Assembly: GCA_023819375.1 (NCBI GenBank)
Contig: JAMWDI010000008.1
Coordinates: 1 to 55,775, forward strand
DNA length: 55,775 nt
Direction of reading: 5' to 3'
Origin: Candidatus Omnitrophota bacterium
GTDB lineage: Bacteria; Ratteibacteria; UBA8468; B48-G9; JAFGKM01
Below, in pieces: positions 15,222-55,533 of the stretch. A program made the position numbers and the translations under genes. Each line of letters starts with the position of its first letter. The first letter of the stretch is position 1. Below the pieces are notes generated by a model that saw nothing but the letters and a program-made list of their open reading frames with translations, searched no databases and was not told the origin of the DNA.

Positions 15222-17787
15222 ATTCCCATTTGTAGTTTCCATTAAAGAAGCGTCTGCAGGAACAGGAAAAACGTTTTCAATAATGCAAGAAATTTCAAAT
15301 TTAAAAAATTTTTATGGTTCTTATGAATTTTTAAAAAAAATTCTTGGAATAACTTTTTCTGAATCTGCTGCAATTGAATTGAAAGAAAGATTGATTACTT
15401 TAATAAATAAAGAATTGAAGTTTATGTCTGAAGAAGAAAGAATAAAAATTCAAAATATTCTTCTAAATTTAAATTTTTCAACAATACATTCTTTCACGAG
15501 AAAACTTCTAAAAAGGTTTTCTGTTATTATTGATATTGACCCATTTTTCCAAATAATAGATGAAAATCAGAGTGAAATACTTTTTTTAAATGCCTTAAAC
15601 AAAGTCATTTCTGAATCTGAAAATCTAAAATTTTTCTTTGAAATTCTTAAGGATTTAAAACTCAACAACTTTACAAAAATAATTTTCGCTATGAAAAGAT
15701 TACATCCTTATATTTTTCTTGGAAAACCTTTAACAGACAATTCTCTAACAGAAAAAATAGTAAAATTTTATAAATCTGTAGAGGAAACATATTTAAACTT
15801 AAAAAAAGAATTGGGATATTTAGATTTTGATGATCTTGAGAAATTAACATTTATAACATTAATAAAAAGGCCAGAAGCAATGTTAATACTTGAAGATTTT
15901 GACGAAAACATTGATTTTATATTTGTTGATGAGTTTCAGGATACAAATTTACTTCAATGGGAAATAATAAAAAAACTAACTGAAGAATGGTCTTCTGGAT
16001 ATGGTGCCAAAGCCGAAGAAAGAAAATTTTATGGAATTTATATTGTTGGGGATAAGAAACAGTCAATTTACAAATTCAGGGGTGGAGAAAAGGAGGTTTT
16101 TGAAGAGGCAAAAAAGGCTTTCAGTGATTTTTATACAATTGAAAAATTGAAAAAAAACTACAGAAGCACTTCTGAAATCATAAATTTTATAAATGAATAT
16201 TTCAAAGATGAAGCCGACTGGAAAGATGAAGAATTAATATTTGGTGGAGAAATGGAAGATTTACCTTCAAAGATAGAAATAAAATTTTTTGAAAACAAAA
16301 ATGATGAGTATGATTGGGTATGTAGCAAAATAATTTCACTTTTAAATAAGAATATTTTAGTAAAAGACAAAAAAACTAATACAAAAAGGAAGATTGAATT
16401 TAGGGATATCCTTTTGCTTATAAGAAAAAGAACAAAAAATTTTAAACTATTAGAGGAAAAATTGAAAACTTATAACATCCCTTATGTTATAATAGGAGGA
16501 ATTGGTTTTTATCAGGAATTAGAAATTAAATTTTTACTTTCTCTTTTATACTCTTTAATTGATCCTACAGATAAATATTCAGTATGGAATCTTAAGAATT
16601 CAATTTTTAAAATAAATGAAGAGAAAATTGAAAATTGGAGGAATTTACTTGATAAATATGAAATCTCTTTTTTGATAGAAGAAATTTTAAAAGAAATTGA
16701 TTTTTGGAAAAATCTTAATATTCAACAAAAAGCAAATGTAGAAAAATTCCTTTCTATTTTACAGGAACAATCTTATCTACCTTTATATCAAATAACAAAA
16801 AATTTTAGGGAATTGTCTCTTTCTTCACTAGAACCAAAAGCAGACATTTATTCACTTCATCAAAATGCAGTTAAAATTATGACTATCCATAAATCTAAAG
16901 GACTGGAATTTCCTGCAGTATTTATTCTAAATATTGAAGATTTACATTATTCCTTTCAGAAAGAAGATTTTTTCTTTTATAAAAAGGAAGAAGGAGAATA
17001 TAAATATGTTTATAAAGAAGAAAGTGATGAAGAATTTAAAAAAGGATTTATTAATCAAATGTCTGAAGAAGAAAATAGAATATTATATGTTGCTATGACA
17101 AGAGCAATGCAGTTTCTTTTTATTTCAGGAACAAAATTTAACCATCCAATATCCAAAAAATTTTATGAACTTTCAGAAAAATTCCATGGAACAGTTGAAG
17201 AAATAAAACCACTTTTATATGAAAAGAAATCTGAAGAAGTAAAAATTGAACCTGTTTTTCAATATACTCCTTTTCTTTCTTATACAAAAGAAAAAAGAGA
17301 AGAGGGATTTGTTTATTCTGAAGCAATTATAGGAGATATAACTCACAGAATTCTAAATGAAATCAGTGAGGGTAAACTGGAATTCAAAGAAGATGAGATT
17401 TCTAAAAGGATTGATTTCTATCTTTTGAAACAAACAAAAAAAGCAAAAAATTATAGAGAAAAAATTTTAAAAATTTTTAAATTGATAAGAAAAAATAAAA
17501 AAATAGAGGAAATTGTAAAATCTAAGATATCGGAAAATGTCAAAAGCGAATTCCCTTTTATTTGTGAAATTGACGGTTCTCTTTATGAAGGGAAAATAGA
17601 TAAAATTTTTGTTAAAGATAATAAAATTGAAATTTATGATTTTAAAACTTTTTTGGGTCCATTAGAAAATTATAAATTTCAACTTAAAATATACAAAGAG
17701 GCAGTCAAAAGAATCTTCAAAAAAGAAAATATTGAATGTTATATAGTTGATTTATCTAAGGGGGAAATCTTAAAAATTGACATTTAA
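15211..17787 (+). CDS. addA: AddA-like UvrD-family helicase-nuclease subunit
   Basis: Superfamily 1 helicase with a fused C-terminal nuclease. Walker A is ASAGTGKT at residues 14-21; Walker B FVDEFQD, VGDKKQSIYKFRGGE, IMTIHKSKGLEFP and YVAMTRA are helicase motifs II, III, V and VI; the C-terminus has EGKIDKIF and IYDFKT, the PD-(D/E)XK acidic-lysine set. The frame is open from 15139, but the ATG at 15211 has AAGGAG at 15195-15200 and begins immediately before motif I, giving 858 residues. It overlaps addB by 11 bases. It is much shorter than Bacillus AddA (about 1230), suggesting reduced accessory domains. Confidence 0.87.
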   Translation: MENKFPFVVSIKEASAGTGKTFSIMQEISNLKNFYGSYEFLKKILGITFSESAAIELKERLITLINKELKFMSEEERIKIQNILLNLNFSTIHSFTRKLLKRFSVIIDIDPFFQIIDENQSEILFLNALNKVISESENLKFFFEILKDLKLNNFTKIIFAMKRLHPYIFLGKPLTDNSLTEKIVKFYKSVEETYLNLKKELGYLDFDDLEKLTFITLIKRPEAMLILEDFDENIDFIFVDEFQDTNLLQWEIIKKLTEEWSSGYGAKAEERKFYGIYIVGDKKQSIYKFRGGEKEVFEEAKKAFSDFYTIEKLKKNYRSTSEIINFINEYFKDEADWKDEELIFGGEMEDLPSKIEIKFFENKNDEYDWVCSKIISLLNKNILVKDKKTNTKRKIEFRDILLLIRKRTKNFKLLEEKLKTYNIPYVIIGGIGFYQELEIKFLLSLLYSLIDPTDKYSVWNLKNSIFKINEEKIENWRNLLDKYEISFLIEEILKEIDFWKNLNIQQKANVEKFLSILQEQSYLPLYQITKNFRELSLSSLEPKADIYSLHQNAVKIMTIHKSKGLEFPAVFILNIEDLHYSFQKEDFFFYKKEEGEYKYVYKEESDEEFKKGFINQMSEEENRILYVAMTRAMQFLFISGTKFNHPISKKFYELSEKFHGTVEEIKPLLYEKKSEEVKIEPVFQYTPFLSYTKEKREEGFVYSEAIIGDITHRILNEISEGKLEFKEDEISKRIDFYLLKQTKKAKNYREKILKIFKLIRKNKKIEEIVKSKISENVKSEFPFICEIDGSLYEGKIDKIFVKDNKIEIYDFKTFLGPLENYKFQLKIYKEAVKRIFKKENIECYIVDLSKGEILKIDI

Positions 17788-17818: not shown

Positions 17819-19126
17819 ATGGAAATTAAAGAATTAATAAAAAAAATTGAAGAAAAAAAAATTAAGATAGGAGTTATCGGACTTGGTTATGTTGGTCTTC
17901 CAATTGTTATTCGGTTTGTTGAAAGCGGTTTTAAAGTTATTGGTTTTGACATAGATGAAGAAAAAGTTAAAAAATTAATGGAGGGAATATCATATATTTA
18001 TTACATACCAAATGAAAAAATAAAGGCATTATTACCTAACTTTAGTGCAACTACAGATATGGGAAAATTAAAGGAAGTAGATGCTATTCTTATATGTGTT
18101 CCAACTCCATTAACACCTTATAAAGATCCTGATCTACAATATCTTTACAAGACAGCAAATGATGTATATAAAGTTTTAAGAGAAGGACATATAATTTCAG
18201 TTGAGTCAACTACTTACCCAGGAACTACAAGAGAAATATATCTTAAAATACTGGAAAAAACTGGCCTGAAGGTTGGAAATGACTTTTTCCTAATTTATTC
18301 ACCAGAAAGAGAAGATCCAGGGAATTTCCAATATGATGCAAGAGAAATACCAAAAGTTGTTGGAGGAATAACGGAAAATTGTAAAAAAGTTGGAATTGCG
18401 TTATATTCTCAAATTGTAAAAAAAGTAGTTCCTGTTTCCTCCACAGAAGTAGCAGAAGCGACAAAATTGCTTGAAAATATATATAGAGCAGTAAATATAG
18501 CACTTGTAAATGAATTAAAGATGCTTTTTGATAGAATGGGAATAAATATATGGGAAGTTATTGAAGCAGCAAAAACAAAACCTTTTGGTTTCCAACCTTT
18601 TTATCCTGGTCCAGGATTAGGGGGACATTGTATTCCTATTGATCCATTTTATTTAACGTGGGTTGCCAAAAGATATGATTTTACAACAAGTTTTATTGAA
18701 TTAGCAGGAGAAATAAATACAATGATGCCTTATTATGTGGTTGAAAAATGTATTGAAGGATTAAATATGCAAGGAAAACCTATAAAAGGAAGTAAAGTTC
18801 TAATAATAGGTATTGCTTACAAAAAAGATGTAGATGATATTAGAGAATCACCTGCTTTTAAAATTATGAAAATTCTTGAAAAAAAAGAGGTAGAAAAAAT
18901 TGACTATTATGATCCTTATGTAAAAGAAGTAAAGAAAACAAGACAATATGATAAATCAATATCTTCAATTGAATTTAAACCTGAAAAACTGAAAGAATAT
19001 GATGTTGCGATTATTGTTACAGATCATTCAAATGTTGATTATGAAACCATATATGAAAATTTACCGTTAATTATAGATACAAGAAATGTGTATAAAGTGC
19101 CATCCCCTAAAGTTATAAAAGCATAG
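17819..19126 (+). CDS. Nucleotide-sugar 6-dehydrogenase (UDP-GlcNAc dehydrogenase-like, WbpA/WecC family)
   Basis: Four-electron NAD-dependent oxidation of the C6 hydroxyl of a UDP-sugar to a uronic acid, a precursor for surface polysaccharide. The Rossmann motif GLGYVGLP is at residues 21-28; the catalytic cysteine is C271 within GGHCIPIDPFYLTW; the central EVAEATKLLENIYRAVNIALVNEL helix is typical of the family. The HCIP-D form and 435-residue length fit the UDP-N-acetylhexosamine dehydrogenase branch better than UDP-glucose dehydrogenase, but substrate is inference. It stands apart from other polysaccharide genes here and has its own promoter. Confidence 0.85.
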   Translation: MEIKELIKKIEEKKIKIGVIGLGYVGLPIVIRFVESGFKVIGFDIDEEKVKKLMEGISYIYYIPNEKIKALLPNFSATTDMGKLKEVDAILICVPTPLTPYKDPDLQYLYKTANDVYKVLREGHIISVESTTYPGTTREIYLKILEKTGLKVGNDFFLIYSPEREDPGNFQYDAREIPKVVGGITENCKKVGIALYSQIVKKVVPVSSTEVAEATKLLENIYRAVNIALVNELKMLFDRMGINIWEVIEAAKTKPFGFQPFYPGPGLGGHCIPIDPFYLTWVAKRYDFTTSFIELAGEINTMMPYYVVEKCIEGLNMQGKPIKGSKVLIIGIAYKKDVDDIRESPAFKIMKILEKKEVEKIDYYDPYVKEVKKTRQYDKSISSIEFKPEKLKEYDVAIIVTDHSNVDYETIYENLPLIIDTRNVYKVPSPKVIKA

Positions 19127-38779: not shown

Positions 38780-40396
38780 TCAAAAATACATGTTTTCTGC
38801 AAGTAAAAAATTAAAATTAGGTTCTATCTCATTTGTCCTTATATGTTCAACTTTTTGAACAATTTCTTCTACAATTTTCCTTTTTTCATAACATAATAAA
38901 ACTTCTCTTGCTCCTTCAAGGGAACCATTCCCTATTTTTATTACTTTATTTTTATCAACTTCAGGAAGTAAACCAATTTTCATAGCATTTTCTATATTTA
39001 TAAAATTTCCAAATCCACCTGCAATAAAAATTTTATCAATGTTTTTAATATCAATAGGATAAATTTTAGAAAGAATTTGCCAACTTGTTCTTATTGCTGA
39101 CTTTGAAATTATTAGTTGAAATATATCTTGTTGAGTTATTTTTATATCGTCTGTTATATAAAATTCACCATTTTTAAGTCGTGCTTTTTCATTTATTATT
39201 CCATTTTTTAACATTTCACTCAAAAGATCTATCAATCCAGAACCGCATATTCCAATAGGATACTTATCCCCAATAGTAGAATAATAGACCTTTCCATTTA
39301 TTATTTTAACTTCTTTTATTGCTCCTTCTATTCCTCCAACTCCACAACTTATATTCACTCCCTCAAAAGCACCTCCAGCAGCAGCAGAAGTGGCAAGGAT
39401 TTTATCTTTATTTCCTATTACAATTTCTCCATTTGTTCCTATGTCTATAAGCATGCACACTTTTTCTTCTTTATAAATTTCTGATGCTAAAATATCGGCA
39501 ACAACGTCAGCACCAACATGTCCTCCTATTAAAGGCAATCCATAAATTTCTCCATTTTTATTTATTTGCAATCCTATTTCTTCTGGTTTTTTTACTATAC
39601 TTTCTGGATTAAGTGGTTCATAAGGTATTTTACCAAGAGTAGATATATCAATGAGAAAAAATATATTTCTCATTGCAGAATTGCCAGCAACAACAATCTC
39701 ATAAATTTTGTCTAATATATCACTATTAAATTTTCTTAACTCTTCATTTATTAAATCAACAACAGATCTCTGCAATTCAACCAATTTTTCCCTTCTTTCT
39801 TCTTCTTTCAAAAATCTTTTTTCTTTTTTATCAATCATTGTATATTCAATTCTTGAAATTACATCATTTCCATAAACAATTTGAGGATTTGTTCTTGCAA
39901 TAGTTCCGACAATATCTCCATTTTCAAGATTAACTATATTAAAAACAATTGTAGTTGTTCCAATATCAAGTGCAATTCCATAAATTCCACCTTTATAATT
40001 TTCAATTTCTACCTCATTTTTATATACCTTCCCATTTTTTGTTTTAAAAAGAGGATATATTTCAACCTTTTTTTCTAATCCACTTTTCAATATTTCATAT
40101 TCTCCAAAATCTTTTATATAAACAACAACATCAGAGACATTTCTAACAATTTTTGTTTGACATGCAAGTCTATATTCTTCTGATAAATTAAATTTTTTTT
40201 CAGAGGAAGTTTTAGAATTTAAGTTTTCTTTCCCTTTTTCAATTCTAACAATACACTTTCCACATTTTCCAATTCCTCCACATTCTGCGTTTATCTTTAT
40301 TTTTAATTTTTGTGCATAATCAAGAATTGTTGATCCAGGATGAATTTCAAAACCATCTTTACCATTCTTAAACTGAGGAAAATATATCTTACCCAT
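38780..40396 (-). CDS. Ferredoxin-ASKHA protein (RACE/RamA-like, DUF4445)
   Basis: Protein of 538 residues. Residues 1-90 are a plant-type [2Fe-2S] ferredoxin domain with C39, C45, C48 and C79. The remainder is an ASKHA-fold ATPase: GIALDIGTTTIVFNIV, AGNSAMRNIFF, GGHVGADVVADILAS, LIDIGTNGEIVIG, SAAAGGAFEG and AGGFGNFI. COG3894 members reductively reactivate corrinoid proteins that drift to Co(II). No corrinoid protein, methyltransferase or dehalogenase gene is in the window, so its client is unknown. It abuts the isomerase gene without any gap. Confidence 0.88.
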   Translation of the reverse strand: MGKIYFPQFKNGKDGFEIHPGSTILDYAQKLKIKINAECGGIGKCGKCIVRIEKGKENLNSKTSSEKKFNLSEEYRLACQTKIVRNVSDVVVYIKDFGEYEILKSGLEKKVEIYPLFKTKNGKVYKNEVEIENYKGGIYGIALDIGTTTIVFNIVNLENGDIVGTIARTNPQIVYGNDVISRIEYTMIDKKEKRFLKEEERREKLVELQRSVVDLINEELRKFNSDILDKIYEIVVAGNSAMRNIFFLIDISTLGKIPYEPLNPESIVKKPEEIGLQINKNGEIYGLPLIGGHVGADVVADILASEIYKEEKVCMLIDIGTNGEIVIGNKDKILATSAAAGGAFEGVNISCGVGGIEGAIKEVKIINGKVYYSTIGDKYPIGICGSGLIDLLSEMLKNGIINEKARLKNGEFYITDDIKITQQDIFQLIISKSAIRTSWQILSKIYPIDIKNIDKIFIAGGFGNFINIENAMKIGLLPEVDKNKVIKIGNGSLEGAREVLLCYEKRKIVEEIVQKVEHIRTNEIEPNFNFLLAENMYF

Positions 40397-44497: not shown

Positions 44498-45523
44498 ATG
44501 GATAATACATTTCATATTCAATGGCATATAACGGATAATTGTCATTTAAGATGCAAGCATTGTTATCAGGATAATTTTTCTTCAAAAAATGACCTTCCTT
44601 TTGAAAAACTTATTTTAATTTATTCCAATATATGTGAATTCCTTGAAAAAAATAATAAAAAACTTGTTATTGATATAACTGGTGGTGAACCATTTTTACA
44701 TAAAGATTGGAAAAAATTAGTTGAAAAAATTATAAAATCTGACTATGTTGAAAAAATTGGTATAATTACAAATGGTTTACTTCTTGATGACTTGATTATT
44801 TACGAAATTGAAAAAAATAAAATAATATTAAAAATTTCTACAGAAGGAGTGGAAAAAGAATCCTATGAATTTTTTAGAGGGAAAAATTATGAAAAATTTA
44901 TAAAAATTTGTGAGAAAATTAAGGATATAAAAACAGAAAAATACTTAATGTTTACTCTGCTTGAGAAAAATTGGAATGAAATTTTTAATATTTTTGATTT
45001 TGCTAAAAATTATAATTTTAATGGAGTAATTATAGAAAGATTTATTCCCTATGGCCTTGGTAAGAAGTTAAAAGAAGATGTTATTTCCTTTGAAAAATGG
45101 GTTTTAATAACAGAATTTTTACATAAAATTTGTAATATAAAATTTGAAATTTCGGATATTGTTGAATTCAAAGGTTATATGGTTAAAATTAAAAAAAATT
45201 GTTATGAACTGTATGGAAGTCAATGTATTGTTGGAAAATATGGAATTGCCATTATGCCTGATGGAAAAGTTTTTCCGTGTAGAAGATTTCCTCTTTCAAT
45301 AGGTAATCTTTTGAAAGATAGATTGATTGATATATGGAGAAATTCTGAAGTATTGAATAAAATAAGGAATAAAAGTTTTTTGAAAGGTATATGTAAAAAT
45401 TGTATAATTGATAATTGTATTGGATGTAGAGCACTTGCTTACAGTATTTATAATGATTTTTTAGAGGAAGATCCTCTATGTTATTTAAAATTTAAAATAG
45501 GAGGAAAAAATGAAAATAATTGA
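44498..45523 (+). CDS. Radical SAM/SPASM protein
   Basis: Protein of 341 residues. C15, C19 and C22 in NCHLRCKHC form the Cx3Cx2C motif that binds the radical [4Fe-4S] cluster. GGEPFLHKDW follows for S-adenosylmethionine binding. The C-terminus has a SPASM-like cysteine series from IMPDGKVFPCRR through GICKNCIIDNCIGC to DPLC, expected to bind one or two more clusters. Related enzymes modify peptides (AlbA, PqqE), proteins (anSME) or sugars. No small precursor peptide is evident on either side. It overlaps the SDR gene by 14 bases and starts the operon that runs to 55533. Confidence 0.88.
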   Translation: MDNTFHIQWHITDNCHLRCKHCYQDNFSSKNDLPFEKLILIYSNICEFLEKNNKKLVIDITGGEPFLHKDWKKLVEKIIKSDYVEKIGIITNGLLLDDLIIYEIEKNKIILKISTEGVEKESYEFFRGKNYEKFIKICEKIKDIKTEKYLMFTLLEKNWNEIFNIFDFAKNYNFNGVIIERFIPYGLGKKLKEDVISFEKWVLITEFLHKICNIKFEISDIVEFKGYMVKIKKNCYELYGSQCIVGKYGIAIMPDGKVFPCRRFPLSIGNLLKDRLIDIWRNSEVLNKIRNKSFLKGICKNCIIDNCIGCRALAYSIYNDFLEEDPLCYLKFKIGGKNENN

Positions 45524-46334
45524 AAAAATTTTCTCTTTAGAGGGAAAAGTAGCAATTGTAACAGGAGGAGGAGGAATTTTAGGATCAGAGATCGCAAAAG
45601 GACTTGGGCTTGCAGGAGCAAAGGTTATTATTGGAGATATAAAAAATTATAAAGAAGTTTCTGAAAATTTGAAAAATTTAGGAATTGAAAGTGAAGGAGA
45701 ATATCTTGATGTTTTTGACAGGAATTTACTGGAAGAGGTAGCAAAGAAAGTCATAAATAAATATGGGAAAATTGATATTCTTATTAACGCAGCAGGGGGA
45801 AACATAAAAGAAGCAACAACATCTCCTGAACTATCTTTTTTTGATATTCCTATATCTGCTCTTGAAAAAGTGGTTGCTTTAAATCTTTTTGGTGGAGCAA
45901 TTTTACCTTGTCAAGTTTTTGGAAGATATATGGTAAAAAACGAAAATGGTGGTTCAATCATAAATATTTCTTCAATGAACGCTTTCAGACCTTTAACAAG
46001 AATTCCAGGATACTCTGCAGCAAAAGCAGCAGTAAGTAATTTCACTCAATGGCTTGCTGTCCATTTTGCTCTTGAATATAATAAAAAATTAAGAGTAAAT
46101 GCAATCGCTCCAGGTTTTTTTCTTACACAACAAAATAGATATCTATTAATTGATGAAAATGGGAATTTAACTGAGAGAGGGAAATCAATAATTTTACATA
46201 CTCCTATGGGAAGATTTGGAAATCCAGAAGAACTTGTTGGAGTATGTATTTTTCTATCTTCTGATGCTTCAAGTTTTATTACAGGAACAGTTATTCCAAT
46301 TGATGGTGGTTTTAATGCTTATTCAGGAGTTTAA
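45510..46334 (+). CDS. SDR oxidoreductase, D-mannonate oxidoreductase-like
   Basis: Classical short-chain dehydrogenase of 274 residues: TGGGGILG at 18-25, INAAGG, catalytic Tyr168 and Lys172 in PGYSAAKAA, and a C-terminal GTVIPIDGGFNAYSGV. The last string is typical of the SDR branch annotated as D-mannonate oxidoreductase (fructuronate reductase), which would link to the KDG-kinase-like gene in a uronate pathway. Alternatively it acts on the product of this operon. AGGAGG precedes the ATG within the end of the radical SAM gene. Confidence 0.82.
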   Translation: MKIIEKIFSLEGKVAIVTGGGGILGSEIAKGLGLAGAKVIIGDIKNYKEVSENLKNLGIESEGEYLDVFDRNLLEEVAKKVINKYGKIDILINAAGGNIKEATTSPELSFFDIPISALEKVVALNLFGGAILPCQVFGRYMVKNENGGSIINISSMNAFRPLTRIPGYSAAKAAVSNFTQWLAVHFALEYNKKLRVNAIAPGFFLTQQNRYLLIDENGNLTERGKSIILHTPMGRFGNPEELVGVCIFLSSDASSFITGTVIPIDGGFNAYSGV

Positions 46335-46336
46335 AA

Positions 46337-47842
46337 ATGAAAATTTCAAAATATTTAGAAAAAGTAAAGAATGAAAATTTAAAAAGATTAATTGAAAAAT
46401 ATATTAAAAAAATAGGAGATGAAGATGTTATTCTAATAAGAGTCCCTGCAAGAATAAACTTACTTGGAACACATATAGAACATCGTGGTGGATTTATAAA
46501 CACACTTGCAATTGATAAAAACTTATGGTGCTTTGCCGGAAAAAGAAATGATCTTAAAGTTTATATTTATGATTTAGAAGAAAAAAAATACCCAGAACAA
46601 GTTATAGATCTTGAAAAAGAATTGCCTGAGAAGGGAATTAATTGGCTTGATTTTATTAGAAAAGTAAAAATTATACCAGGTGAATGGAGTAACTATATAA
46701 AAGGTGCATTTTTATATTTAATGAATAAACTTCCACAAATAGAAATAAAAGGTTTAAATTTGTTTTTTTACGGTGAAATCCCAACAGGTGCTGGGTTAAG
46801 TTCATCTTCTGCTATGGTGGTTGCAACAATGGTAGCACTTATTCATCTTTATAATTTACCAATTAAAAAAGAAGAACTACCAGAAATGTGTGGGGAAGCA
46901 GAATGGTATGTTGGGACAAGAGGAGGAAGTGGAGATCATGCTTCAATGATTTTAGGAAAGAAAGGATATATAACTCATATAAGATTTTTCCCCTTCATAA
47001 TTGAATACATTCCATTTCCTGAAAATTATCAAGTAATTTGTTGCAACTCTCTTATAGAAGCCAAAAAATCAGCAAATGCTAAAGATATTTTCAATGAAAG
47101 AATTGCTTCCTATGAAATTGGTTTAAAATTAATAAAAAAGAAATTTCCTGAATTGAAAGAAAAAATTAATTACGTTAGAGATATAAATGTAAAAAACCTT
47201 GAAAGCAACACAAAAATATATGAAATTTTACTTGCTCTTCCTGAAAAATTGACAAGAAATGAGGTTTATGAACTTTTGCCAGAAGAAAATTTAGACCGAA
47301 TTTTTGAAACTCATAGAGAACCAAAGGAGGGATATAAAATAAGAGATGTTATGTTATATGGAATAAGTGAATGTGCAAGAAGTGAGGTATGTGCTGAATT
47401 TTTAAAAGAAGGTAAAATAAAAGATTTTGGAGAGTTAATGTTCATTTCTCATGATGGAGATAGAGTTGTAAGATTTTTGAAAAATGGGATAAAAAGAAAA
47501 TGGAATTATAGCGTGAATGACAAATATCTTTTGAAACTTATAGAATATTCAAAAAGTAAAAATATGAAAAATAGAAAAAAAGCAGAAATTTATTATCAAC
47601 CTGGTGCCTATAGATGCAGTATAGAAGAAGTTGACTTTATTGTTGATACAGTTAAAATAATTAATGGAGTTATAGGAGCAAAAATTACAGGGGCAGGACT
47701 TGGTGGATGTGTGGTTATTTTAGTAGAAGAAAAAAAGGCAAATGAAGTTTTAGAAGTTTTAAACGAAAAATATTATAATCCAAGGAAACTTGAATTTGCT
47801 TCTTTTGTTTGTAAATCTGTAAATGGAGTAGAAATAATTTAA
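46337..47842 (+). CDS. GHMP-family kinase, divergent galactokinase relative
   Basis: Protein of 501 residues, longer than the usual 350-400 of galactokinases. Motif 1 reads RVPARINLLGTHIEHRGG (35-52), motif 2 PTGAGLSSSSAMV, and motif 3 AKITGAGLGGCVVIL near the C-terminus, so ATP binding and the fold are intact. In galactokinase motif 1 is GEHTDY, whose Glu and Asp contact galactose; here the corresponding residues are Thr45 and Glu48, with His49. The substrate is therefore probably not galactose. The gene follows the SDR after two bases and precedes the giant gene by 16. Confidence 0.82.
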   Translation: MKISKYLEKVKNENLKRLIEKYIKKIGDEDVILIRVPARINLLGTHIEHRGGFINTLAIDKNLWCFAGKRNDLKVYIYDLEEKKYPEQVIDLEKELPEKGINWLDFIRKVKIIPGEWSNYIKGAFLYLMNKLPQIEIKGLNLFFYGEIPTGAGLSSSSAMVVATMVALIHLYNLPIKKEELPEMCGEAEWYVGTRGGSGDHASMILGKKGYITHIRFFPFIIEYIPFPENYQVICCNSLIEAKKSANAKDIFNERIASYEIGLKLIKKKFPELKEKINYVRDINVKNLESNTKIYEILLALPEKLTRNEVYELLPEENLDRIFETHREPKEGYKIRDVMLYGISECARSEVCAEFLKEGKIKDFGELMFISHDGDRVVRFLKNGIKRKWNYSVNDKYLLKLIEYSKSKNMKNRKKAEIYYQPGAYRCSIEEVDFIVDTVKIINGVIGAKITGAGLGGCVVILVEEKKANEVLEVLNEKYYNPRKLEFASFVCKSVNGVEII

Positions 47843-47858
47843 ATAAAGGAGTGTAAAA

Positions 47859-50800
47859 ATGGAAGAAAGAAAATTTGTAAAGAGATTGCTTTCAAGTAAT
47901 TCAAAAGATGAACTTTTGGATTTACTTTCAATTTATGAGAAATTTCCTATCTCTAAAAAAGAAAAAATCAAAAATTTACTTCTTAAAGAGGAAAATTGTG
48001 ATTGGTATATAGATTTCCTCTCTAATGAAAAAGAGGAATTAATCAAAAAGAAAAAAATTTCTGCTTTTTTGCTGGCAAGAAAAACATTTGGTATACCTTA
48101 TGATAGAAAGAGAGTTAAAAAAATTATAGAAACAGAAAAAGACCTTGAACAATTAAGATATAAAATATATGAAGCAATAAATGAAACATACAATGATACT
48201 TTTGATGAAGAATGTGCAAAAAGAATAGCAGAGAAAGCAAGTAAAGAAAATAGAAGAATTGTTTGTGGAAGATTTAGTCGTGCTTTTTACATAGATGCTT
48301 TACTTCTTGCCAATTCCCGCCTTATTGCGTGTGAAAAGTTTAAAGAAAATTTAAATAAACTAAATGAAAAAATTAAACAATTAAAATTTTTCCCATCTTA
48401 TCTTTATACTGAAATTAATGAACTTGATTATCTTTTAAAAGAAAAAGAAACAGCAAAAGCACAGATTTTAAGTTCTTTAAAAAAACTGGAAAAAGACCTT
48501 ATTGATTATGAATTAAAACTTATACAGAATTTTAATGAAGGAAAAATAGAAAACAAAATTTATGAAAATGATAGAAAAGTCATTGATTCTATTAGAAAGG
48601 AAATATTGGAGTTCAAAAGAAAAATTGAAAAAGAAAAAGGTAGGCCACCAATTTATATGGTATTTTTCCAGAGAATTTTTCCAATAGATGCAATTTTTAT
48701 GGGACTTCTAAATGAACTTATGGATCCATTCTTTGGAGAAGATCCTCATATAGATGAACTTTTAAGTGAAGGAGGAGAGAATATCTATGTAACCCCTGGA
48801 ATGAAAAACTGGTTAAAAGTTTGCGATGACTGGATAGAAGCACTTCCTGCTTATGCTTCATATGAAATAATACCTGAAAATGGTTCTTATAAATTCAAAC
48901 CCTATGTTCAAAGAAATATTCTTGAAGAGATGTATAGAGCAAACGCAGATAGTTGGGCAGAAAATATTAATGATGTTATGCTAACAGAACATTTACAACT
49001 TGCCAGAGAATTTATTGCTGATTTATTTAAAATAAAATACAAAAATGAAGATGAGTTGATTAAAAAATTAGGGAAATTCAAAGAAGAAGTTTCTATGGTA
49101 GCCGCATTAATTGAAAAAACATATGAAAATCTTATTGAAAATATTGGACGTATCTGTGAGAAGGAAAATATTTTGAGATTTGATGGGTTAAAAAAGATAA
49201 TTGAAGAGAGAAAAGATATAATTAGTGAAATACCAGTAGAAATTAAAAATAAAGAGTCTTTCAAAAAAATACTACAAAATCTCATTAAAAAATATAATCT
49301 GGAAGAAAAAGTTAAAGAATATCTTGAAAACTTTCATAGAAAAAGAAGAAATTTACCATCAGTTCATGTATTGACAACTTTAGGGCCAGGAGAAACAGAG
49401 TTTAACGTTAAAAATTGGCTTGAAGAAGGGATGCTCCTTTATAATTTTATTAAGAAAAATAACTTATCTGGAAAAGTCGAAGAAAAAAGAAAAATTTGGA
49501 AAGAAAATATCATAAAGGTTGGTGAAAAAATTGTAAAAGAAAATAATCTTGAAAGTGAAGTTTATAAACTTGACGAAAAAAATTTTAAAGAGGGAATTGT
49601 AAAAATCCTTTTCGCTTATCCTGATATAGGTAAAGAGGTTGCCAAACTTTGCATTCTTTTGATAAATGAGGGACAAAATTTCAATAAAGATAATTTTGTG
49701 GCGAAAGAACCAAATGAAATCATTAAGGAATTGCCACCAGAAATAAAAGAAAAATTAGGAACAAATAAATTAACTGAAGAGGAGGCAGAAAAATTAAAAA
49801 ATTTAAGACAGGAATTGGTTAAAAAATACAATCTTGAAAAAAATGTATCCACATTTTTAAAAGACTACCTTCATCCTGTTTACTCAAAAGTTAATGCACA
49901 GAGGCAAGTAATCACAGAAGAAGGTCTATTAGAAGAACTAAATAAACCGATATATAGATATGAAGCCAAAGGGGCATACAAAAAATATAATCTTCTGTAT
50001 ACTCCAAGTAGAGTTGACCTTGGAGCAAAAGAAGTTTATTCAGTAAGAGATATCCCGAAATGGGTTGGAGGGATTGATAATTACTCTGCACTTTCTGGAA
50101 AATCACTTTATTCTTTATATAACATTGCAGGTCCAACTGTCGTTCCCTCAACAAGAATTGCTGAATTTTTAAAAGTTGGTGAAAATTTCTTCTCAAGGGG
50201 TGGGGTTTTTTATTTATCTCTTACTGCTGGAATTAATCTTGATGTTTTAAGATTTGGAGAATTTGAATTTTTCAGAAATCAATGGAATATGAGAGGAGAT
50301 AGAATAGTTTTACCTTCTGGTGAAACATATGGTGGATTTTGCGTTCCAAAAGAATTTAGTTTACTTTATGCAATAATAATTTCAGCAGTGGATAAAGAAA
50401 CTTCAAGTAAAATACTTAACTCTTTTGGTATTCCAGAAAAACTTCATGAAATAGTAATTTCTGATTTGAGAAAAGTTCTTGCATGGAGATTAGATTTCCA
50501 ACTTGAAATTGACTGGGAAGGCAAAGCACTTTCTTATTTATATTCAAAATATCCTGAATATTTTAAAATTTATGGAGAACCTGTTTATCTATCAAGATTA
50601 CCTCAAATTGCCTTAACGCTTGAAAAAATGGGAATAGTAATTCCTGAGGGTGAAGAAGAAAGAATAAATGAATTTAAACTTACATACTGGGTAAACAAAA
50701 AAGCGCAGGGATTAGAAGAAATAAACAGAATAGGACCTTTCAGGAAAGTAAAACTTATTTATGATCTTATAAAAAGAGCAAGAGAAAAAAATAAATATAT

Positions 50801-53800
50801 TGTTCCTGATGATGCTTTAATTGGAGTTATGGATGTCAGTTATAAAGAAAGTGAAGTGGAAGATGGAAGATTAATACCTGTATCTGATGTAAGGTTTAGT
50901 GCTGGTTGTAGAAAATTAGAAATTTATAGTTTAGTTGCCGAAAAACATATTTTACTTGATATAGATCCAGAAGGAAGAGAAATCATAAAAGAAATTTTTA
51001 AAAATTTTGTTCCACCAGCAGATATAAGAATTGTTGGCAGATGTACAGGTTCAGATATTTTAAATCATGTCCCCAATTCTGGTCTTGAAGAAATAAAAAA
51101 TGAAGTTCTTGAATATTTATACAAAATAGGTCTTGATGAAAATTTAATAAAAACTAACTGTATTGTTTATGGTGGAGACATAAAAAAATGGGTTGGAATA
51201 AGGGAAAGAAGTGTTGAAGAAATAAATAAAATATATAATGACTTAAAGGGAAAAATCCATCTTTTAGTAATAGATAAAAGAGGTCCATTTTCTTCATATA
51301 AAATAGCAGTTAGAGGAGTTGATTTTGTTGATTTAGGAATTCCAGATCCAGAATTACTTCAACTGATTGACAATCTACCAGAATTTATATATTTAATTAA
51401 AAAGGATAGGCCTTTCAGTGCTCTTGTTTTTGCTGATGGAACATCTGGTGCAAGAAGACCATCATTTGCTTATGGTTATCCAAATTGTAGAAGAAAAGTT
51501 AAAGAACTTTTTGCTATTGAAGAAAAAGCAGTTTATGGTTGTCTTGGAATTGGGAAGGAAACTATTGATGAGTGGAGAAAAGAAATGGAGATTGAAAGAA
51601 GTTTAAGTAAGGAATTACTGGATTCAGTTTTAAATGAAAGTAAAACAAGTTTTTTAGAAAATATGAAAAAAATAAGAAACTATATTATTAAAGAAAACAA
51701 AGTTGACCAGGCTATACTTGAAGAGCAACAAGCAAAAAGAATAAACAATTGGAATTTAAAGGATAAAGTTTACACAGAGACATTTTTACATTTATCTAAA
51801 GAAAATAACTACGAATATTTTGATTTTGGGAAATGGTTAATATTTGGTGGAATATTTTTGTTAAACGGGAAATATACAAAAAATGAAGTTGAAAATTTAA
51901 GAAGTGAATTTGAAAGAAAATTAAAGAAAATCTTAAAAGAAGAAAGGAAGCCCTATAGCAAAAAAGAAATTGATTTTATTATAGAGAAATATTTTAGACC
52001 AATTTATATACCTGAATTAAAAACAAAATATGAGGAAATAAGCACCGGACTTGCAGGTTCTTTAAAAGCAGCAGAAATACAAACACAGGCACTTGCAAGA
52101 TGGCAGGAAAGAAAAAGAGAATATGAAAAAATAAAGAATTTACAAAAAAGAAAAGAAAATTACAAAAACTTTGATTTTACTTCTTTGAAAAATTTAGCAC
52201 TTGAAGAAATTTATAACAAAGCAAAAGAAATTCTTGGAGAACCGCAAAGAATGATACCACCTGAAGTTTTTGGAAAGTTCCTTGCTATTTCAAAAGTTTA
52301 TATTGAAAAATTAATTTATGAAACAAAAGAAATTCAGGAAAAGGAAAAACTTTTAAATGAAATAGAAAACTTTTTCAATTCATCAGAAATAAATGAAGAA
52401 AACTACATCAATTTTGCTACACTTATCTCAAATTTACCTAAATATAAAGAAAATGATTTAAAATTTTATGAAAAAGTCTGTATGGCCCTTGAGTTACTTG
52501 ATATATCCTTCCTTCTTGAACTGGTTTCAAACTGTTATACCGAAAATGAATTTAATACTGCAATAGCAAAATTTCTTGATAGAACTGTCAACAGCCATAT
52601 TTTTGATTATTTACCATATCATTATCATAGAGAGCGCTCTCCTTATTTTGAAAAATTATCAAGAGACCTTAAATTTAAATTTGCCTTTAAATTTCATAAA
52701 TTTCTTTATTCTCATTTAAGATATCTTGTGTGTGAAAAAACTGATTTGAAGTATTATTCAGAAGAATATAAAGAACTTTATATAGGAAATATTTTAGAAA
52801 AGAAAAAAGCAATAGGAATAAAAGGAGAAACAGAAGAAGAAATTTTCTGGTTCCATTATGCAAGAATAAGAGATGCTGTTGTTTTAAAGTATGAGGGCTT
52901 TGGATATCCAGAAATTTATACAGATGTAGAAATAGAGGACATTAAAGCCAATGAAAGAGTTAACGTAGTTATTGTATATCCCTATGGTAATACTACTGTT
53001 CCTGTTGCTTTACAACAAGGGCCCAAATTTGCCCAAAATAAAATCAACCTATTTCTTACTGCATTTCCTGAAGTAAAAGAAATAAATGACTATAAAATTC
53101 TACAAATAAAAGAAGGAATGATATATCTTTCTGAAGACGAATTAAATCATATCAGAGAAAAATATCAAAAAATTGTTCAACTAAAATCTGACTTTGTATT
53201 CCTTTCTTTTAAAAATCCAGTAACTGCACATGCCATATTTTTCCACTTTACTCATCCATTAAGACCTTATATTGACCATTTTAAAATTCCAATTATACAA
53301 CCATTAATATGGGAAGCAGCAACACACTTAAAATGTGAATTACCAAAGATGCTTGCTGGATCAGGAGTAAAAGTTCCTGAACAAATAAACTGGTATATGA
53401 AAGATACTGAGAAATTTAAAGACAAGGCAAAAGAAAAAATAAGGGAAAAAATAAAGAATCTTGCCAAAAAATACGATACAATCATTGTAAAATGTGAAAA
53501 AGAGTCGGGAGGAAGAAAATCAATGATTTTACCTGTAAGAGAAAATGGCAAATATCTTGAAGAAAATATAGATAAACTTACAGATTTAGTTTACGAAATT
53601 TCCTTAACTGATAATGCTGTAATTCAGGAAGTTATAAAATCTAGAGTGAGACAACTCTATACAAGAGAATTTCTTGAAAATGTTGTAGAAAGATTTGCTA
53701 AAATTGGAATTCCAGTCTTAATTGATAGAGAACCTCAAACACCACTATATTCCTATTTTAGACAAATTGTTGTCCTTGGAAAAGAAGGTTATAAAATATC

Positions 53801-54515
53801 TCATCATATCACAGTTATAAGCACACGAGGAATTGCAAATGTGGGGCAGGGCGGTCTTCTTTATGAATATACAGATGATATAATTCATCCTAAATATAGA
53901 AAAATATTAAGAGAACAGATAACAAAAGCAGTTTATAAAAGTTTAGAATACCAACAAAAATATCTTGAGAAAAACTGGAAATTTGTAATTGAAGAATACC
54001 TGAAAATTCATCCAGAATTTAAAGAAAAGGTTAAATATGACGAAATATTTACTGATTTGACTGGTTTTCCAATTACAGGAATTCCTTATGAAATGGGCGA
54101 TTATATGCCTGTATTTTTAGTAGATGAGTTTGAAAATTTAAGGTATATATATGACGAAAAAGAAGGGAAACTTTTACCCTTATATGACGAAAAAGGAAGA
54201 CCAACAGACATTAAAATATATGATGAAAATGGAAAAGAAATCCCCAGAATAGACAAAAATAAAAAACCTGTTTTAATACCTTATTTTGATGAAAATGGAA
54301 ATCCAAGAAAGATATATGACGAAGACGGAAAAGAAATTCCTCCTCTCATTATATGTAAGATAGAACCAAATCCTGGTGCAGGTTTATGGAGACCTCATAA
54401 TGATAGATTACCACCTGAAAGAAAAGGGGAAGGAGTATTTATAATATTCAGTTGTCTTGCAGAAAGAGGAAAAATTTATAAAGAAAAAATTGAAAAACTT
54501 ATTGGTAATTTATGA
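47859..54515 (+). CDS. Giant 2218-residue protein with C-terminal ATP-grasp-like region
   Basis: I do not recognise the first 1700 residues. They appear soluble, have no signal peptide or membrane segment, and include long charged helices (about 150-265 and 1270-1500) and conserved-looking glycine-rich blocks such as LTTLGPGETEF, RVDLGAKEVYSVRDIPKW and FADGTSGARRPSF. From about 1870, IIVKCEKESGGRKSMILPV, a later RQIVV strand and E2169-x-N2171 in EPNPGAGLW match the order of ATP-grasp nucleotide and magnesium sites. A run of IYDENGKEI-like repeats (2097-2164) interrupts that domain. AAAGGAG precedes the ATG. It probably activates a carboxylate for ligation; substrates are unknown. Confidence 0.7.
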   Translation: MEERKFVKRLLSSNSKDELLDLLSIYEKFPISKKEKIKNLLLKEENCDWYIDFLSNEKEELIKKKKISAFLLARKTFGIPYDRKRVKKIIETEKDLEQLRYKIYEAINETYNDTFDEECAKRIAEKASKENRRIVCGRFSRAFYIDALLLANSRLIACEKFKENLNKLNEKIKQLKFFPSYLYTEINELDYLLKEKETAKAQILSSLKKLEKDLIDYELKLIQNFNEGKIENKIYENDRKVIDSIRKEILEFKRKIEKEKGRPPIYMVFFQRIFPIDAIFMGLLNELMDPFFGEDPHIDELLSEGGENIYVTPGMKNWLKVCDDWIEALPAYASYEIIPENGSYKFKPYVQRNILEEMYRANADSWAENINDVMLTEHLQLAREFIADLFKIKYKNEDELIKKLGKFKEEVSMVAALIEKTYENLIENIGRICEKENILRFDGLKKIIEERKDIISEIPVEIKNKESFKKILQNLIKKYNLEEKVKEYLENFHRKRRNLPSVHVLTTLGPGETEFNVKNWLEEGMLLYNFIKKNNLSGKVEEKRKIWKENIIKVGEKIVKENNLESEVYKLDEKNFKEGIVKILFAYPDIGKEVAKLCILLINEGQNFNKDNFVAKEPNEIIKELPPEIKEKLGTNKLTEEEAEKLKNLRQELVKKYNLEKNVSTFLKDYLHPVYSKVNAQRQVITEEGLLEELNKPIYRYEAKGAYKKYNLLYTPSRVDLGAKEVYSVRDIPKWVGGIDNYSALSGKSLYSLYNIAGPTVVPSTRIAEFLKVGENFFSRGGVFYLSLTAGINLDVLRFGEFEFFRNQWNMRGDRIVLPSGETYGGFCVPKEFSLLYAIIISAVDKETSSKILNSFGIPEKLHEIVISDLRKVLAWRLDFQLEIDWEGKALSYLYSKYPEYFKIYGEPVYLSRLPQIALTLEKMGIVIPEGEEERINEFKLTYWVNKKAQGLEEINRIGPFRKVKLIYDLIKRAREKNKYIVPDDALIGVMDVSYKESEVEDGRLIPVSDVRFSAGCRKLEIYSLVAEKHILLDIDPEGREIIKEIFKNFVPPADIRIVGRCTGSDILNHVPNSGLEEIKNEVLEYLYKIGLDENLIKTNCIVYGGDIKKWVGIRERSVEEINKIYNDLKGKIHLLVIDKRGPFSSYKIAVRGVDFVDLGIPDPELLQLIDNLPEFIYLIKKDRPFSALVFADGTSGARRPSFAYGYPNCRRKVKELFAIEEKAVYGCLGIGKETIDEWRKEMEIERSLSKELLDSVLNESKTSFLENMKKIRNYIIKENKVDQAILEEQQAKRINNWNLKDKVYTETFLHLSKENNYEYFDFGKWLIFGGIFLLNGKYTKNEVENLRSEFERKLKKILKEERKPYSKKEIDFIIEKYFRPIYIPELKTKYEEISTGLAGSLKAAEIQTQALARWQERKREYEKIKNLQKRKENYKNFDFTSLKNLALEEIYNKAKEILGEPQRMIPPEVFGKFLAISKVYIEKLIYETKEIQEKEKLLNEIENFFNSSEINEENYINFATLISNLPKYKENDLKFYEKVCMALELLDISFLLELVSNCYTENEFNTAIAKFLDRTVNSHIFDYLPYHYHRERSPYFEKLSRDLKFKFAFKFHKFLYSHLRYLVCEKTDLKYYSEEYKELYIGNILEKKKAIGIKGETEEEIFWFHYARIRDAVVLKYEGFGYPEIYTDVEIEDIKANERVNVVIVYPYGNTTVPVALQQGPKFAQNKINLFLTAFPEVKEINDYKILQIKEGMIYLSEDELNHIREKYQKIVQLKSDFVFLSFKNPVTAHAIFFHFTHPLRPYIDHFKIPIIQPLIWEAATHLKCELPKMLAGSGVKVPEQINWYMKDTEKFKDKAKEKIREKIKNLAKKYDTIIVKCEKESGGRKSMILPVRENGKYLEENIDKLTDLVYEISLTDNAVIQEVIKSRVRQLYTREFLENVVERFAKIGIPVLIDREPQTPLYSYFRQIVVLGKEGYKISHHITVISTRGIANVGQGGLLYEYTDDIIHPKYRKILREQITKAVYKSLEYQQKYLEKNWKFVIEEYLKIHPEFKEKVKYDEIFTDLTGFPITGIPYEMGDYMPVFLVDEFENLRYIYDEKEGKLLPLYDEKGRPTDIKIYDENGKEIPRIDKNKKPVLIPYFDENGNPRKIYDEDGKEIPPLIICKIEPNPGAGLWRPHNDRLPPERKGEGVFIIFSCLAERGKIYKEKIEKLIGNL
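54147..54350 (+). repeat. Intragenic YDE(N/K/D)G repeat tract in the giant protein
   Basis: Residues 2097-2164 repeat a 13-18 residue unit four to five times: IYDEKEGKLLPL, LYDEKGRPTDI, IYDENGKEIPRI, YFDENGNPRKI, IYDEDGKEIPPL. The DNA copies are diverged (for example TATGATGAAAATGGAAAAGA and TATGACGAAGACGGAAAAGA). The tract lies immediately before the E-x-N metal site of the ATP-grasp-like domain. Confidence 0.8.
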
Positions 54516-55533
54516 AATTGATGATGAATATATAAAAAGAGTTCTTTCATTTTTTAAAATTTTCTCTTTGAAAGAAGGTATACCTTTAAATTTTTATGCC
54601 AAAAGGTTTGAAAAAGATAAATTTGAAAAGAAAACATTATTTTTAAATGAGGAGTTTAAAATATGTGAGAAAGATATTAACAATTTAAATTTTTTTCAAT
54701 ATTCAATAATTTTATCTTTAAATCCTGAATTTGAAAAAGAACATCATAAAGAAATTTCAGAGTATCTTAAAAAAATCAAAATTCATCAATTCAATCCATT
54801 TTTACCATCTTTTTTGGCATCGGACAAATTTAAGATAATAAAAAAACTTGAAAGATATGGTATAAATGTTCCTGAAGCAATCTTAATTGAATTTAAATAT
54901 AGAAAAAAATTAAAAGAGAAAGTTGAGGAATTCATTAGTTTAATTCAGAAAGACGCCTTTTATATCCAACCAAATTATGGAACTGAAGGAAAACAGACAT
55001 ATTTTTTTACAAAAAATCAAATAATTGAAAATTTTGATTTTTTTATTGAAACAATTTTAAGCATTTTACCAGAACAACCTGTAATTATAAAAGAAAAAAG
55101 AGGGAATGTATATTATTTTAAAGAAGAGGAAAAAATTTTAGGCTATAGAGATGTTGTTTTAAGGTTTTTTATCTTTGAATATAATAAAAAAATTTTTTCA
55201 AACTGGTGCTTTTTTGAAATAAGTCCAAATGAAAAACTTCCAATAACTTCTCCATATCAAGGTGGTAGGATTTTGAATTTTAACGATATAAAAAATAATC
55301 TTTATTATAGGGTAGGGGGAAATTTCTACAGATTTAATTTAACAGAAATTCACAAAAAGCAAATTATTTATGAAGTTCAAAAGATTTTCAAATTATTTAA
55401 TAATAACTTAAAAGAAAAATTAAGAATAGGAGGCATGGATATTTTACTTGAAACTGATGGAAAAAATATAAAAACTATATTTCTTGAACTAAACCCTCGT
55501 CCCTCTGGCCTTGACAAACTTGATTTATTTTAG
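54457..55533 (+). CDS. Second ATP-grasp-like protein
   Basis: Up to 358 residues. LASDKFKIIKKLERYGINVPEAILIEF begins the ATP-grasp N-lobe; DAFYIQPNYGTEGKQTYFFTKN is the glycine-rich nucleotide loop; QPVIIKEKRGNVYYF and a final IFLELNPRPSGLDKL with E-x-N give the ATP and magnesium sites. The frame has no early ATG: possible starts are TTG at 54457, 54490 or 54502, all overlapping the end of the giant gene, so translation is probably coupled and the start is uncertain. It likely works with the giant protein. It ends nine bases inside a convergent gene. Confidence 0.72.
   Translation: MQKEEKFIKKKLKNLLVIYEIDDEYIKRVLSFFKIFSLKEGIPLNFYAKRFEKDKFEKKTLFLNEEFKICEKDINNLNFFQYSIILSLNPEFEKEHHKEISEYLKKIKIHQFNPFLPSFLASDKFKIIKKLERYGINVPEAILIEFKYRKKLKEKVEEFISLIQKDAFYIQPNYGTEGKQTYFFTKNQIIENFDFFIETILSILPEQPVIIKEKRGNVYYFKEEEKILGYRDVVLRFFIFEYNKKIFSNWCFFEISPNEKLPITSPYQGGRILNFNDIKNNLYYRVGGNFYRFNLTEIHKKQIIYEVQKIFKLFNNNLKEKLRIGGMDILLETDGKNIKTIFLELNPRPSGLDKLDLF

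Follow-up and report, generated by a model that had tools for sequence, protein, structure and literature searches.

Organization of the operon

The window analysed here is the whole of contig JAMWDI010000008.1 (55,775 bases), from the 1.73 Mb genome of a Candidatus Omnitrophota bacterium, and it carries an operon built around a giant protein of 2218 residues. Five open reading frames (ORFs), all on the plus strand, encode a radical S-adenosylmethionine (SAM)/SPASM protein (44498–45523; 341 aa), a short-chain dehydrogenase/reductase (SDR; 45510–46334; 274 aa), a GHMP sugar kinase (46337–47842; 501 aa), the giant (47859–54515) and a stand-alone ATP-grasp protein (54457–55533; 358 aa from a TTG codon at 54457). 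With starts as annotated, the successive junctions are −14, +2, +16 and −59 bases. The initial annotation, made from the letters of the window, had described this arrangement, and both the ORF calls and the conserved order at locus L013 (JAMWBY010000001.1) bear it out. L013 has the identical five-gene order, proteins 70–85% identical to those of the window and matching divergent upstream genes; in genome G003 the five genes are divided between two contigs (L156 and L014), with radical SAM, SDR and kinase on one and giant and ATP-grasp protein on the other. Because the order is kept in L013 and, across two contigs, in G003, the five ORFs are not a random grouping. With the contig ending at 55775, the downstream side of the operon lies outside the view.

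The last gene could also start, in frame, at TTG 54490 or TTG 54502. Its homologue at L016 is separated from the giant by a gap of +14 bases, with no overlap, and in the alignment begins where 54502 would. The true overlap in the window is therefore probably 14 bases rather than 59, with the real start of the ATP-grasp partner perhaps at 54502.

Across loci, the operon resolves into a conserved core (giant, short ATP-grasp protein and GHMP kinase) and a local addition (radical SAM and SDR). That core comprises three enzymes: a GHMP sugar-1-kinase, an ATP-grasp ligase that stands alone, and the giant, which fuses an inflated, degenerate module resembling UDP-glucose dehydrogenase (UGDH) to a second, related ATP-grasp domain.

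Architecture of the giant protein

Searched alone, the giant has almost no match in Pfam or the PDB, and NCBIfam returns a weak nucleotide-sugar dehydrogenase fragment at residues 689–838. Homologues were collected from other genomes, and alignments of 37 and 39 rows were fed to two AlphaFold2 runs. The first model (residues 60–1255; pLDDT 84.6, pTM 0.80) was matched by VIA to whole three-domain nucleotide-sugar dehydrogenases, including 3g79 (Z 21.0), CalS8 (20.6) and 4r16 (20.1), and to GDP-mannose dehydrogenase 1mfz (Z 19.1, rmsd 3.7 over 350 residues). The matches cover model residues 69–1182, that is, giant residues ~131–1236 (48249–51566). Most full-length rows have an rmsd of 16–20, because insertions and domain shifts are large, and Foldseek by itself is weak for this model (best E 1.5e-3). 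Profile evidence points the same way: PF00984 is matched in 23 of 37 giant homologues, the giant profile reaches 4.1e-8 against the PDB, and hhalign aligns it with ordinary UGDH-like proteins at E 3.6e-14 over 204 columns. By model and profile, residues ~131–1236 are thus predicted to adopt an inflated nucleotide-sugar-dehydrogenase fold. The same contig encodes an ordinary UGDH-like nucleotide-sugar dehydrogenase (17819–19126; GLGYVG, GGHCIPID), a non-degenerate comparison for the giant.

The second model (residues 1019–2218; pLDDT 86.8, pTM 0.73) contains a confident all-helical stretch of about 440 residues between the two enzyme modules (~1258–1698; 51630–52952; AlphaFold2 secondary structure), followed by an ATP-grasp domain of the LysX/ArgX/RimK/Ddl type (~1701–2208; 52959–54482). 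Model residues 683–1190 (giant 1701–2208) match LysX 3vpd with Z 21.0 and rmsd 3.1 over 272 aligned residues, and the other leading VIA matches are ArgX, RimK, DcsG, glutathione synthetase and Ddl (Z 19–21). K1878, Q1923, R1968, N1994, E2169 and N2171 are invariant in the giants, which also keep E1882-S1883-G1884. In the model, the C-terminus is a complete ATP-grasp ligase fold with its ATP- and metal-binding residues, in agreement with the ligase-fold domain proposed initially. The accompanying statement that the first 1700 residues could not be assigned no longer applies to most of them, which belong to the inflated dehydrogenase fold; it stands for the fold of the helical stretch. A scan of viral contigs returned no relative of the giant, and a viral fold library gave generic ATP-grasp matches only.

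Active-site residues of the UGDH-like module

We compared the alignment with the 18 family-invariant residues listed for nucleoside diphosphate (NDP)-sugar dehydrogenases (PMC4794789). The equivalent of the catalytic thiol Cys260 is Cys828, in the motif GGFCVPKE (50340–50342), and is invariant (39/39). So are K772 (=Lys204; 40/40), N776 (=Asn208; 39/39), G825-G826 (=Gly257-Gly258; 39/39), N956 (=Asn287; 39/39), K996 (=Lys320; 42/42) and E769, the equivalent of Glu201. The Asp264 position is Asp in 26 giants and Glu in 13, the window among the latter. R1012 is present in 41/41 giants at the place of Arg327, itself 99% conserved in the dehydrogenase family (PMC4794789). Thr506-Thr507, found in 40/40 giants, is probably the counterpart of Ser117-Thr118, to judge from a weak sub-alignment and the model.

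Other positions depart from the family. In place of the GxGxxG NAD-binding turn the giant has VCGRFSRAF (residues 135–143; 48261–48287), within which a motif GRxSRAF is conserved (R138, R141, A142 and F143 in 38/38; S140 in 37/38); the equivalent of Gly7 is retained in 37/38. In the Pro140-Glu141 pair, Pro716 is kept in 38/39, and Ser717 (50007–50009) stands in the hhalign-based alignment at the place of the invariant Glu (PMC4794789). Tyr10, assigned to thioester hydrolysis (PMC4794789), is replaced by Ser. The sugar pocket and covalent catalyst thus look kept, and the cofactor and hydrolysis features look gone. We take Glu141 to correspond to residue 161 in human UGDH. A Gln mutant of the human enzyme at that residue has been crystallised with the thiohemiacetal (PMC3184952). 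The N-terminal region of the giant matches a known enzyme family in degenerate form only, with family-invariant residues lacking. Judged by the invariant residues tested, the giant falls outside the NDP-sugar dehydrogenase family, though it would work like a sugar-acid amidation system.

The ATP-grasp partner and its co-inheritance with the giant

The stand-alone protein was assigned by profile matches and alignment. The window copy matches PF02655 and PF14397 weakly; a homologue matches the RimK family at 1.9e-7, and D-Ala ligases are matched at 2.5e-4. K124, R236, D328, N346 and R348 are invariant in its family, which is related to the ATP-grasp domain of the giant itself (hhalign E 1.5e-6). 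Of the 34 loci with room to show its gene, 20 have it immediately 3' of the giant; at L141 and L147 it is masked by an overlapping spurious ORF.

Co-occurrence of the two proteins is near-complete. Of 19 giant-bearing genomes tested, 18 contain the partner, and the one without it is 60% complete; none of 14 giant-lacking genomes searched alongside contains it. With the window's phylum included, the counts become 22/23 and 0/40 (Fisher 4e-16, uncorrected for relatedness), which supports the place that the initial annotation had given to the second ATP-grasp protein. The association holds even without linkage and repeats in several phylum-level groups. Pairwise distances of giant and partner correlate with r 0.90, a value reached by 0 of 5000 permutations and one that joint vertical descent would also give. 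Among uncultured bacteria the giant itself is sporadic, with occurrences in at least six phylum-level groups: it is present in 4/35 genomes of the window's phylum, 10/14 of that of G177, 20/64 of that of G315, 1/17 of that of G061, one of two each for G299 and G072, and one Hydrothermota metagenome-assembled genome. Genomes of family f254 (L123, L126, L128) hold second, diverged giant copies, with an ATP-grasp gene 3–4 ORFs upstream on the other strand.

The sugar kinase

The window kinase is galactokinase-like by Pfam, NCBIfam and motifs (PTGAGLSSSSA, GGSGDHAS); it has a galactokinase signature and an altered sugar signature, GTHIEHRGG, and it falls below the NCBIfam galactokinase equivalog cutoff (TIGR00131, 174 bits vs 226.65). 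A GHMP kinase gene lies immediately 3' of the ATP-grasp gene in 14/14 examined loci in which that gene is unlinked to the giant, and directly after the giant–ATP-grasp pair in G072, G299 and eight f264 loci; most other lineages have one adjoining the ATP-grasp gene. The neighbours of the giant homologues are thus not random, and the kinase supports the initial proposal of a sugar substrate. The kinase subfamily varies by lineage: galactokinase-like in the window, G072, G299 and f258, fucokinase-like in f264, and of a third type of ~335 aa in f148. This third type resembles glucuronokinase in a motif only; in the PDB it comes closest to a heptose phosphate kinase. That the subfamily is swapped within a fixed slot argues for a requirement for sugar phosphorylation.

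Close relatives of the window kinase in its own phylum are fused behind an NTP_transferase domain (L036:529-3000, 824 aa; L039:283-2973, 897 aa) and by sequence are predicted bifunctional kinase/nucleotidyltransferases. Such fusions are known among salvage kinases, as in FKP and zebrafish glucuronokinase (PMC3938481). The galactokinase-like GHMP family also occurs without the giant in this phylum; at L029, L030, L033 and L034 (family f2), which lack the giant, the kinase gene adjoins a sulfatase-family gene (Pfam-confirmed in L030) and an apparent radical SAM-like gene.

Radical SAM, SDR and other genes of the window

The radical SAM/SPASM protein was assigned with Pfam and NCBIfam (PF04055, 1.1e-17; PF13186, 2.1e-11; CxxxCxxC at residues 15–22), and the SDR resembles D-mannonate oxidoreductase (PF13561; NF006132, 350 bits vs a cutoff of 281). 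In the neighbourhood comparison both genes were observed solely in the window's genus, with the radical SAM gene also at L013 and L156. A radical SAM–ATP-grasp pair, put forward initially as the core of the system, was dropped once the neighbourhoods of giant homologues were compared. At the f254 loci L122, L127 and L132, a different radical SAM protein, KamA/glutamate 2,3-aminomutase-like, is encoded near the giant and ATP-grasp pair.

Just upstream of the operon, on the opposite strand, lies a gene for a RACo-like corrinoid-activation protein (38780–40396; Fer2 and RACo domains). Elsewhere in the window, two overlapping 882-aa ORFs (12573–15221 and 15139–17787) with PD-(D/E)XK nuclease and UvrD-type helicase features resemble an AddB/AddA-type recombination pair.

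Proposed pathway and alternatives

Domain identities, conserved residues, co-inheritance and operon linkage are observed; from them we infer the chemistry. We give roughly even weight to a pathway in which the module activates a sugar, handles an NDP-sugar acid and amidates it through ATP-grasp chemistry, the substrates, order of steps and product being part of that proposal. The kinase would make a sugar-1-phosphate, and an ordinary nucleotidyltransferase from another locus would convert this to an NDP-sugar. The dehydrogenase-like module of the giant would bind the NDP-sugar or NDP-sugar acid and engage C6 through Cys828, and the two ATP-grasp sites would use ATP to activate a carboxylate and join it to an amino acid or a simple amine; the product would be an amide of a sugar acid or a sugar-peptide conjugate. 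In the window's genus, the SPASM radical SAM protein and the SDR could introduce further changes in the sugar or the amine portion. Cj1438C of Campylobacter jejuni, an ATP-grasp enzyme that amidates the carboxylate of a glucuronate, is a precedent (PMC11800379).

Several observations weigh against this pathway. No glycosyltransferase or nucleotidyltransferase is constant in the neighbourhoods of giant loci, and in G061, f222 (G315, G413) and the examined f254 copies the pair was seen without an adjoining GHMP kinase; for G007 the neighbourhood view is limited, as its contig starts inside the giant. A fold is no proof of substrate class, and ATP-grasp enzymes also form esters, thioesters and acyl phosphates. 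In the NAD turn, Gly9 has become Phe, Met or Leu and Gly12 has become Ala in 38/38 giants, and Glu141 is Ser717 in 39/39; with the turn lost and the Glu replaced, the dehydrogenase-like part may oxidise nothing. One possible, if doubtful, form of the pathway accommodates these losses: the UGDH-like half, having lost oxidation and hydrolysis, would be an acyl-transfer module: an NDP-sugar acid, bound through Cys828 as a thioester or in some other way, would pass from it to an amine, with both ATP-grasp ligases taking part.

It is unlikely that the giant is instead a working NAD-dependent NDP-sugar dehydrogenase with an unusual nucleotide loop, which would oxidise an NDP-hexose twice and give the uronate to its own ATP-grasp domain. 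The retained equivalents of Cys260, Lys204, Asn208, Asn287, Lys320 and Arg327, the Asp or Glu at the Asp264 position and the two threonines at the family's Ser117-Thr118 place speak for such an enzyme; the second and third turn glycines, replaced throughout, the Ser at both Tyr10 and Glu141, and the lack of a visible conserved acidic residue at the end of the second strand speak against it. Bond formation of another kind, with the ATP-grasp sites phosphorylating or otherwise modifying a sugar or inositol-like substrate, is improbable: PPIP5K kinases appear among weak Foldseek rows and the exact acceptor is not readable from the fold, but the top structural matches are the carboxylate-amine ligases named above.

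Two further readings were considered. An ordinary sugar-catabolism operon, near glycoside hydrolases, with kinase and mannonate-type SDR and with the giant and ATP-grasp genes present by accident, would fit the GH106-like enzyme and sugar genes upstream and the giant-free occurrence of the kinase family in the phylum, and could apply to the SDR and radical SAM genes. For the kinase it is contradicted by the recurrence of GHMP kinases of different subfamilies beside the ATP-grasp gene in several other phyla and unrelated surroundings, and we give it a slim chance overall. Scarcely likely, too, is a ribosomal-peptide tailoring cluster (graspetide or radical SAM) with a precursor peptide as the substrate of the giant. 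The operon does contain both ATP-grasp and SPASM radical SAM proteins, and the macrocyclases MdnB and MdnC are among the fold matches, but the window flanks hold no convincing precursor ORF beside the radical SAM gene, the junctions leave no space for one, the radical SAM gene is limited to the window's genus, and the conserved partners are a sugar kinase and a UGDH-like module.

The architecture and co-inheritance of the module suggest an undescribed route for attaching amines to sugar acids; as the initial annotation had surmised, no described pathway combining these enzymes was matched in the open-access literature searched. The giants make up a protein family, 2,200–2,700 residues long, whose fold is now assigned and whose partners are near-obligate; it spans at least six phylum-level groups. 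The module gives a concrete genetic basis on which to seek a new metabolite of the sugar-acid amide or sugar-peptide kind. With its covalent catalyst kept and its cofactor turn gone, the UGDH scaffold also offers a direct test of the fold's capacity for non-redox chemistry. If true, the acyl-transfer proposal would give the UGDH fold a chemistry new to it, and would imply a widespread sugar-acid conjugate class of a new kind.

Comparison with known systems

The giant shares with UGDH, UDP-ManNAc dehydrogenase and GDP-mannose dehydrogenase the three-domain fold and, in all sequences, the catalytic Cys, Lys, Asn, Gly-Gly and the Lys that contacts the UDP-sugar phosphate. Those nucleotide-diphosphate-sugar dehydrogenases have ~430–475 residues, whereas its module has about 1,100, lacks the NAD glycine turn, Tyr10 and Glu141, and is fused to an ATP-grasp domain. 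Like LysX/ArgX/RimK and D-Ala-D-Ala ligase, its C-terminus has the complete fold and conserved ATP and metal residues, and the partner protein is related; unlike them, this domain sits in a protein of 2200–2700 aa and is paired with a second ATP-grasp protein. The module kinases, galactokinase-like or fucokinase-like and with nucleotidyltransferase-fused relatives, resemble the GHMP sugar-1-kinases galactokinase, fucokinase and glucuronokinase (PMC3938481), from which the window kinase differs in its altered sugar signature. In principle, the closest parallel is the C. jejuni capsule glucuronamide pathway (Cj1441 UGDH and the C-terminal ATP-grasp domain of Cj1438), where an ATP-grasp enzyme converts the carboxylate of an oxidised sugar to an amide (PMC11800379). 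Unlike the giant, the C. jejuni enzymes are separate and ordinary-sized, their ATP-grasp domain is TupA-like and fused to a glycosyltransferase rather than a dehydrogenase, and no GHMP kinase enters the comparison.

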